Below, piece by piece: positions 17,302 through 21,054 of a DNA stretch of 64,000 bases. This DNA is from an uncultured Bacteroidales bacterium (GTDB lineage Bacteria; Bacteroidota; Bacteroidia; Bacteroidales; Paludibacteraceae). Numbering within the stretch: position 1 is the first letter of the stretch; the number at the start of each line of letters is the position of its first letter. Made by a program: the position numbers and the translations under genes. Location: positions 42,032 to 106,031 of the forward strand of contig CAMOUL010000006.1 of the NCBI GenBank assembly GCA_946626605.1, read 5' to 3'. The notes beneath the pieces are model-generated. The model was not told where the DNA came from and ran no database searches. It was given only the letters and a program-made list of their open reading frames with translations.

Positions 17302-17365
17302 TCTTCGTTAATCGGTGTATAATGTTTATTGTACTTACGTACGTTTATAAGTATATGGTGTAAAA

Positions 17366-17643
17366 GGAATCGACACCTCCAGTGTTTTCTTCGGTTTCGC
17401 AGAAACCGGGTTTTTGACTTCGAAATAGCTGGCTGGTTATAGCGGAATTATTAGCAACTATCGTTGCTGCGGATTTGGATAGTAAGGCGCGCTGCAAGCT
17501 CGCTTGTGAGCGCGGATTAGTAGACAAGTACGCTCAAGGCCGCGTAGGCCTAAATTCCGATAGAACCAAGAGCTATGTAGAAGATGTTTTTTAGAGGGCG
17601 TAGCCCGAGTTTTCGATTACCTGATTAAACAGCCGTCGATTCC
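17366..17643 (+). ncRNA. Candidate structured RNA / repeat element, copy A
   Basis: 278 nt bounded by a perfect 9-bp inverted repeat GGAATCGAC/GTCGATTCC; internal hairpins CGGTTTC-gca-GAAACCG, AGCAAC-tatc-GTTGCT, GGCC-gcgta-GGCC, GGGC-gta-GCCC; followed by GGTTTTTT. Nearly identical to copy B. Strand uncertain; + preferred because of the T-tract. Confidence 0.6.
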
Positions 17644-17659
17644 GGTTTTTTCTAATTAA

Positions 17660-18022
17660 CTATTCTTCGTAATACCCTTTCTCAATGCCGTACTGCAACT
17701 CCGCATCCTGTATCAACTGTACCTGCACCGACGTGATTGACCTGCCTTCTTCGCGCACCGCCTTCAGGATATAATCCAACTGCTCCGTCTCATCTACATC
17801 GCCGTCCAGATACTCCATCTCTCCCGTCTTCGGATCTTCACGCAGTAAGCCTTTCTCCTCCAGGTAGTCGTCCATCAAATCCAGCACAAACAGCACATCA
17901 TCCGCGGACAACATCTCACCATTTTCACCATTCTCATCATTAATCATTTTCATGATGTACTCCACCATCTCTCTTTCTTCCGGCTCCATCAGCGCCATCT
18001 CTATACTCTCATTCATATCCAT
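17660..18022 (-). CDS. Conserved-looking acidic hypothetical protein, 120 aa
   Basis: Intact ORF MDMNESIEMALMEPEEREMVEYIMKMI...; lies between structured copies A and B. Confidence 0.7.
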   Translation of the reverse strand: MDMNESIEMALMEPEEREMVEYIMKMINDENGENGEMLSADDVLFVLDLMDDYLEEKGLLREDPKTGEMEYLDGDVDETEQLDYILKAVREEGRSITSVQVQLIQDAELQYGIEKGYYEE

Positions 18023-18094
18023 AATCGTTAATTCTTTAACTATATAAAGTTTATTGTACTATCGTACGTTTATAGAGTTTATAAGGTGTAAAAA

Positions 18095-18372
18095 GGAATC
18101 GACACCTCCAGTGTTTTCTTAGGTTTCGCAGAAACCGGGTTTTTGACTTCGAAATAGATGGCAGGTTATAGCGGAATTATTAGCAACTATCGTTGCTGCG
18201 GATTTGGATAGTAAGGCGCGCTGCAAGCTCGCTTGTGAGCGCGGATTAGTAGACAAGTACGCTCAAGGCCGCGTAGGCCTAAATTCCGATAGAACCAAGA
18301 GCTATGTAGAAGATGTTTTTTAGAGGGCAAAGCCCGAGTTTTCGATTACCTAATTAAACAACCGTCGATTCC
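18095..18372 (+). ncRNA. Candidate structured RNA / repeat element, copy B
   Basis: 278 nt, same 9-bp terminal inverted repeat, about 7 mismatches to copy A by eye; followed by TGTGTTTTTATTGTTTTTTT. Confidence 0.6.
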
Positions 18373-18406
18373 TGTGTTTTTATTGTTTTTTTCTTTTTAA
18401 TATCTT

Positions 18407-18973
18407 CTAACTTACTTTTTTACGAACACATGCTGCGATAAACTCTGCTATTTCTTTAGGCTCCAGTCCGGCTACATTCAGCACCAGGTCGTAGTTACGC
18501 GCATCGTAACGACTCTTCCCGCTAAAGGTATTCGTGAAGTTCTCACGAGCCTCATCTACTTTGTTAATCAACAGGTCTGCACTCCCTTCATTGATATTCA
18601 ATCGCCGCGCAACCTTATCACGACGATACGCCATGTCGGCAATCAAGAATACCTTAAATGCATTGGGATGATCGCGGAAGATATGAAAACCGGTACGGCC
18701 TAAGATCACGCACGACTCTTTCTCTGCCAGCGAGCGAACGATAAACTCCTCATCGTTGTACAGGTCTTGCGAAATAGTCTCAAACCACCAACTCTTCTTC
18801 ATGCCCTTGAGTTTGTCTATCTCCTCCTGGGTAAGGTTATAGCGATCTTCCAGCTGCTTCAGCAAGCCTTTGTCGTATAACTCTACTCCTAAGATCTTTG
18901 CCAATTCAACGGCAATCTGTCGTCCACCGGTTCCGAACTCTCGTCCGATAGTCACTACAAATTTCTTTTCCAT
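18407..18973 (-). CDS. Cytidylate kinase-like family protein
   Basis: VVTIGREFGTGGRQIAVELAKILGVELYDKGLL, VILGRTGFHIFRDHPNAFKVFLIA. Confidence 0.85.
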   Translation of the reverse strand: MEKKFVVTIGREFGTGGRQIAVELAKILGVELYDKGLLKQLEDRYNLTQEEIDKLKGMKKSWWFETISQDLYNDEEFIVRSLAEKESCVILGRTGFHIFRDHPNAFKVFLIADMAYRRDKVARRLNINEGSADLLINKVDEARENFTNTFSGKSRYDARNYDLVLNVAGLEPKEIAEFIAACVRKKVS

Positions 18974-19003
18974 AAGTGTAAGAAAAAATTTTTATGTTTT
19001 AGC

Positions 19004-19298
19004 ATTGATAGAAGCACTTGTTTTCGACCGTTGAATCCGAAACCATCGGATTCCCAAAGCCACAGTCGGTAGCAAGCAGGTATGTAGCGCTGGATGGTAC
19101 ATCCGTTGCACTGCGGAAACAGCATAAGGAGCGTCTAGGAGCTCGCTCATAAGCGCGCATTAGGATGTTTACGCTAAGGCCGCGTGGGCCAAAGGCATAG
19201 CGGACACATACCGATGCTAACGATTGGGGCGCGTTTTCTTGTAAGCGAAGCGCGTTTTCGATTATAGCAAAGCGGTAAAATAACCTGCTTCTATCAAT
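19004..19298 (+). ncRNA. Candidate structured RNA / repeat element, divergent copy C
   Basis: 295 nt bounded by a perfect 13-bp inverted repeat ATTGATAGAAGCA/TGCTTCTATCAAT; shares islands with A/B (AGCTCGCT..AGCGCG.ATTAG, TACGCT(C)AAGGCCGCGTrGGCC, TTTTCGATTA) while terminal and hairpin sequences differ; followed by GGTGTTTTTATTGTTTTTTTT as in B. Confidence 0.6.
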
Positions 19299-19462
19299 GG
19301 TGTTTTTATTGTTTTTTTTTCTTCTGTTGGGGTCCCCGGAAATCTGCCGATTTTGGGGGAGAGCGGAGGCATAAGTCGCCTTTACCAATTAGCGGAGTGG
19401 TTTGGTCCCTGCGATCTTATTGCCGAACGCGATTTTATCTCCCGAAGGGTTTTTATTTCCTT

Positions 19463-20700: not shown

Positions 20701-21054
20701 TTACTTCTGCTCCTTCAAAGTCTTAACACTAGACGTGAGAACCCTATGTATTTCCTCCGCGTCTTTCATTAGTTCCTCGTACTGCTCTTTTTTAATCAAC
20801 TCCGATCCGTACAGCACTTTCAGCCAGTACATAGTCTCGTGAGCCTCTTTCTGTGCAATAGCGAGTTTGTTGATGAAGTCTGCCTTGCTTATTGCGTCAC
20901 ATGCTTCGCTATAGTTCGCACCTATACTCGTACCTGCTCTCTGTATTTGGTCGGAGTTATTGTACTCATGCTGCTTTTCCCGCAAGTACTTGCGTAGTTT
21001 ATTGATCTTTATCGAAAATGCTATGCACTTATCCAAAAATTCTTGCCGTGTCAT
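20701..21054 (-). CDS. Four-helix-bundle protein (S23 / 23S rRNA IVS-type family)
   Basis: FLDKCIAFSIKINKLRKYLREK...QIQRAGTSIGANYSEACDAISKADFINKLAIAQKEAHETMYWLKVL. Confidence 0.88.
   Translation of the reverse strand: MTRQEFLDKCIAFSIKINKLRKYLREKQHEYNNSDQIQRAGTSIGANYSEACDAISKADFINKLAIAQKEAHETMYWLKVLYGSELIKKEQYEELMKDAEEIHRVLTSSVKTLKEQK

Follow-up and report, generated by a model that had tools for sequence, protein, structure and literature searches.

A genus-restricted family of nested, hairpin-forming MITE-like repeats in Bacteroidales

Three elements, designated A, B, and C, in the window (the whole 64,000-nt stretch of DNA that was analysed) are members of a hitherto undescribed family of mobile repeats, which are small, lack genes, form hairpins, and are nested and dispersed through the genomes of one genus of gut bacteria. 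This is a new, strongly structured, nested family of MITE-like repeats. Its copies are dispersed and end sharply, their occupants differ between relatives at one and the same site, and their conserved fold is polarised to one strand.

Results

Copies A and B are each 278 nt in length and differ by seven mismatches (97% identity), as the first-pass annotation of this DNA had reported. The similarity is longer than that annotation stated, extending over 290 nt plus a 32-nt piece on the left that is 91% identical. Copy C is diverged, and conserved islands had been noted in it; it does share AAGGCCGCGTrGGCC and CGnGTTTTCGATTA with A and B in the same order. The perfect terminal inverted repeat ascribed to C is 14 nt long (19003-19016 and 19286-19299). 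Whichever strand is folded, A and C far surpass their dinucleotide-shuffled versions, with z from -4.2 to -4.9. T-rich tracts stand after the structure in the window copies, and single genes sit between A, B, and C. One of these is a cytidylate kinase-like gene between B and C (18407-18973, minus strand), whose neighbourhood changes from one inspected genus relative to the next, even where the protein is still 89% identical. A gene near the cluster (20701-21054, minus strand) encodes a four-helix bundle/23S rRNA-intervening-sequence protein (PF05635, TIGR02436). The first-pass annotation overlooked a fourth structured repeat, element D (GGGGTCCCCGGAAATCTGCCGATTTTTGGGG...), which represents a second structured family with copies inside other elements (L249, L206, and L232 in addition to the window); the window copy of D has no match in Rfam. 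Coordinates are collected in Table 1.

Table 1. Positions of the repeats and their parts within the window.
Feature	Position	Strand	Description	Remarks
Copy A	17366..17643	+	Shell GGAATCGAC...GTCGATTCC enclosing inner core element	Core 97.8 bits
A shell, left half	17366..17389	+	Terminates in GTTTTC (17384-17389)	Recurs round a different insert at G156 site B
A core	17470..17555	+	Stem P3 and hairpin P4 (GGCCgcgtaGGCC)	Covariance-model match, covariation
A shell, right half	17609..17643	+	Starts GTTTTCGATTA	
Copy B	18095..18372	+	Shell and core type as in A, 7 mismatches	Other insert in G156
B core	18199..18284	+		97.8 bits
Flank piece beside A	17318..17349	.		91% identity to 18043-18074
Flank piece beside B	18043..18074	.		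91% identity to 17318-17349
Copy C	19003..19299	+	Shell CATTGATAGAAGCA...TGCTTCTATCAATG plus inserts	
C, first GTTTTC delimiter	19020..19025	+		Once in empty shell G000:C1:270074-270143, three times in C
C core	19114..19195	+		61.7 bits
C, small hairpin unit TTGTAAGCGAAGCGC	19233..19259	+	Flanked by GTTTTC at 19233-19238 and 19254-19259	Like grammar in G171, G156
Element D, second structured repeat	19327..19441 (ends approximate)	+		In C-type shells (G156:C33, G106:C7) and in core element near G000:C1:10.2 kb

A BLAST search with copy A recovered more core pieces on five other contigs of the same genome and in eight of 36 genus relatives, and 19 copies yielded a clean alignment of the core. 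The covariance model of the core shared by the copies, designated R1, scores 97.8 bits for A and B (E 2e-23) and 61.7 bits for C (E 1e-13); copies A and C were themselves among the sequences used to make the model, so these scores are not independent, whereas the other copies are. The covariance-model search of Bacteroidales that the first-pass annotation had proposed as a check found R1 in 73 of the 178 genomes of the window's genus and not in the other 105. Copy number ranges from 0 to 23 among the relatives, with 13 copies in the window's genome. Across a sample of the order that comprised 295 genomes from 183 genera, matches were limited to the window's genus. An exact 23-nt pattern, searched in one genome per species for 85,462 species, matched only uncultured Bacteroidales and Paludibacteraceae, several of them labelled as sheep or roe deer gut. 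Searches of viral contigs, phages, and plasmids returned no match to the elements. The earlier annotation had recognised no named family; Rfam likewise contains no matching family at gathering or relaxed thresholds, and the family is not described in the literature searched.

Nearly all copies (77 of 79) are intergenic. They sit on many contigs and point either way with respect to genes, with no consistent neighbour orientation or gene end; a bias toward the 3' ends of genes, which was an impression from single loci, disappeared on counting (74 versus 67 neighbouring gene ends). The elements are short, gene-less, dispersed, and mostly intergenic, as are MITEs. The shell ends of A, B, and C provide the terminal inverted repeats of that class, and single inner units end in a stem plus a T-rich motif.

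The predicted folds contain a long stem (P3) and a hairpin (P4) that are preceded by a second hairpin (P2) and surrounded by an outer stem (P1), generating a four-way junction. Among 78 distinct sequences, 92% of cells pair and 21 of the 26 core pairs carry changes in both partners. None of 500 shuffles reaches the observed covariation values and sliding the partners abolishes the signal; covariation with added homologues had been set as a check by the first-pass annotation. The alignment of 78 sequences was fitted to the model; an unfitted alignment of 19 shows a like picture. Non-Watson-Crick cells on the plus strand comprise 61 G-T and 7 A-C (p 3e-10 for bias; p 0.001 in the unfitted alignment). 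Composition does not account for this bias, since the corresponding counts in slid pairs are 1835 and 1589. The tolerance of G-T but not A-C identifies the plus strand as the folding strand, which acts as RNA or single-stranded DNA, two forms that the G-T/A-C comparison does not separate. Covariation together with strand-specific wobble is the behaviour of a structured RNA or single-stranded DNA element, and the folded shape is clearly under selection. An unanchored wobble count for the P1 arms was too noisy and was dropped. The sequence TACGC just before P4 complements the P4 loop GCGTA (for example, within 17470-17555 of the window), and three copies have TACAC/GTGTA instead. This candidate extra helix is mostly invariant with three compensatory cases, and an alternative pairing or a tertiary contact is possible.

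Comparison with relatives revealed that the elements are composite. G156, a close relative with 90-95% identity to the region around the window, carries elements as in the window at sites A and C; at site B, the B shell is kept and encloses a different inner element. The C-type shell occurs without an insert at G000:C1:270074-270143, where it reads AGAAGCTCT GTTTTC GATTATAGC. In window copy C, GTTTTC appears at 19020, 19233, and 19254 and brackets both the core element and a hairpin unit of 15 nt. Shells of the C type in G191, G171, and G156 are filled with other units, again with GTTTTC between them. A C-type shell also encloses element D at G156:C33 and at G106:C7, and near G000:C1:10.2 kb a copy of D splits a core element. 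The same shell with another insert, the empty and filled shells, and the nesting of D establish that the differing terminal repeats are the ends of separate nested shells, which belong to different elements. The first-pass annotation had read these repeats as compensatory change of one helix, which does not hold given site B of G156 and the empty and filled C-type shells. Its view that the copies are not simply a duplication but a mobile repeat of RNA-like character, with a fold that is conserved, is borne out by the genus-wide family, strong covariation, and strand-biased wobble, with the amendment that A and B are true duplicates of each other including their flanks. Core elements probably entered the shells, which are separate palindromes, at T-rich motifs of the GTTTTC type.

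The ends of the units are sharp. When 13 loci of one subfamily were aligned, conservation ran from TATTTTCTTTATTTTTG to GCATTTTCGATTTA and not past either, and a hairpin unit (GAGGGCTGTAAGCCC) between two ATTTTYG motifs was absent from two subfamily copies. T-rich motifs (GTTTTC, RTTTTYG, or GTTTAT) are found at unit ends and between units. The delimiter varies between loci, and its types agree across the two sides of a copy (0.56 versus 0.22 permuted), a value inflated by subfamily relatedness and obtained with a test that was chosen after seeing the data and that replaced a wide-window flank-repeat test (p 0.03). Between LptG and tgt, G156 has an occupant, whereas in the window's genome, G000, this intergenic region is short or empty. 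One GTTTTC in the empty shell against three in C would fit a duplication of the target, but the empty and filled C-type shells come from separate loci, and around LptG-tgt the flanking sequence has diverged too far for the exact junction to be read. In two loci with the same flanks, G030:C64 (L207) and G000:C1 (L234), the former is without the right half of a C-type shell and the break falls within T-rich tracts. In G000, the DUF58-MoxR region contains a different occupant, whose ends are similar and whose core is unrelated, which indicates a superfamily wider than R1. Like ends around an unrelated core are also seen at G000:C16 (L255), G163:C34 (L174), and G128:C28 near 138 kb (L175), as in a wider superfamily beyond R1.

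Discussion

We consider it probable (roughly 78%) that A, B, and C are stacks of MITE-like, non-autonomous mobile repeats that are moved in trans and whose inserts are replaced by recombination. An enzyme supplied in trans would recognise the folded single strand, as RNA or single-stranded DNA, and insertion of that strand beside a T-rich motif would leave the motif repeated. Recombination between copies may then swap one insert for another, as at site B. Most likely, the elements persist as genomic parasites and not as regulators of one gene.

As a counterpoint to this mobile-repeat reading, a cellular function as RNA could also account for the strong conservation specific to one strand. The copies would then be a duplicated family of structured non-coding RNAs, such as trans-acting RNAs, terminators, or attenuators, consistent with the strong covariation and plus-strand polarity, the intergenic position of 77 of 79 copies, and the T-rich tracts after the structure. 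We regard this explanation as unlikely because copy number varies from 0 to 23 among relatives, with absence from 105 of 178 genomes, no neighbour or gene end is consistent, elements nest, and a single site can hold different occupants. The dispersal of the copies, the sharp ends of the units, the filled/empty site, and nesting favour a mobile repeat over a dedicated regulatory RNA, and covariation by itself is no proof of a host regulatory RNA.

Integron attC sites work as a folded single strand and contain a short exchange motif that is repeated. The elements resemble them in that one strand folds, a short GTTTTC-type motif is repeated between units, and A, B, and C are separated by single genes, as if attC-like sites delimited gene cassettes. 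Dispersal over many contigs, the presence of both orientations with respect to genes, and a delimiter that differs from locus to locus make an integron-like recombination system very unlikely, and the four-way junction also sets the elements apart from attC sites. REP and IS200/IS605 hairpins stand next to a short motif and are recognised on one of the two DNA strands, and hairpins next to a fixed short motif with single-strand polarity would suit movement by a Y1 transposase. The transposase search across the genus, which was for Y1 (PF01797), found no match in G000 (80% complete) and mostly weak partial matches in 68 of 178 genomes, the seven best hits being in genomes without an R1 match. 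Y1 is therefore a misfit as the agent, and this explanation is highly improbable. The elements are also much larger than REP or IS200/IS605 hairpins, with a four-way junction and no association with a Y1 transposase. A coding palindromic element like those of Rickettsia is scarcely credible: a frame with an ATG encodes a 41-aa, Ala-rich peptide ending in YAQAA at L017, L019, L020, and L023, but the start is lost elsewhere, just 14 of 73 copies keep the 41-aa frame open across the core, A and B have no usable start, C contains stops, and the intergenic position of 77 of 79 copies differs from the frequent in-frame insertion into protein genes of the Rickettsia type.

Bacterial MITEs such as QMITE2 of Coxiella and BrickBuilt of Porphyromonas gingivalis are short, gene-less, intergenic, and dispersed, with terminal inverted repeats, stable transcript folds, and short direct end repeats (PMC10969869, PMC5771137). 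The mobile repeats described here share their small size, gene-less and intergenic nature, dispersal, and terminal inverted repeats. They differ from QMITE2 and BrickBuilt in that selection acts on one folded strand, as covariation and strand polarity reveal, in that units nest into arrays with T-rich delimiters, and in being without a known parent insertion sequence. ERIC, RUP, Correia, and RPE are likewise small, structured, intergenic repeats restricted to particular lineages (PMC2229807), as the present elements are to theirs, but the latter are unrelated in sequence (by Rfam and database searches) and are distinguished by modular nesting and a four-way junction. Strand-polarised covariation in genus-restricted nested repeats means that selection sees a single folded strand. 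This raises the testable question of whether small bacterial repeats can be mobilised through RNA or single-stranded DNA without a classical transposase.

Clustering of neighbouring ORFs yielded one recurrent family, TIGR04256/PF13366 GxxExxY (PDDEXK_3), at 26 loci. PDDEXK_3 genes adjoin elements far more often than chance: in nine element-bearing genomes, which have 1-3 such genes each, 12 of 19 are no more than 300 nt away from an element. The independent cases number fewer than 12, because several look like one locus in different species (e.g. beside a RecQ-like or ABC-transporter gene). Element-free genomes also carry a PDDEXK_3 gene. The link is a lead, not a mechanism, and it offers a starting point for work on a widespread family of proteins whose function is unknown. 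It is tempting to speculate, and we do so with considerable doubt, that the repeats represent a new class of selfish element. Its mobile form would be a single folded strand, either RNA that is copied back or single-stranded DNA, which inserts beside T-rich motifs, stacks in nested arrays, and is aided by the neighbouring PDDEXK_3 nuclease through cleavage and the use of other copies as templates. GxxExxY genes lie directly beside elements at L017, L021, L030, L099, L104, L106, L108, L109, L112, L113, L115, L123, L145, L149, and L151. Small genes with no family match over the cut-off (SCNVTRTITT...TIETYDASKKL type and SAGIDTVSGALSK type) also recur beside elements, at L014, L015, L032, L146, L239, L265, and L143.
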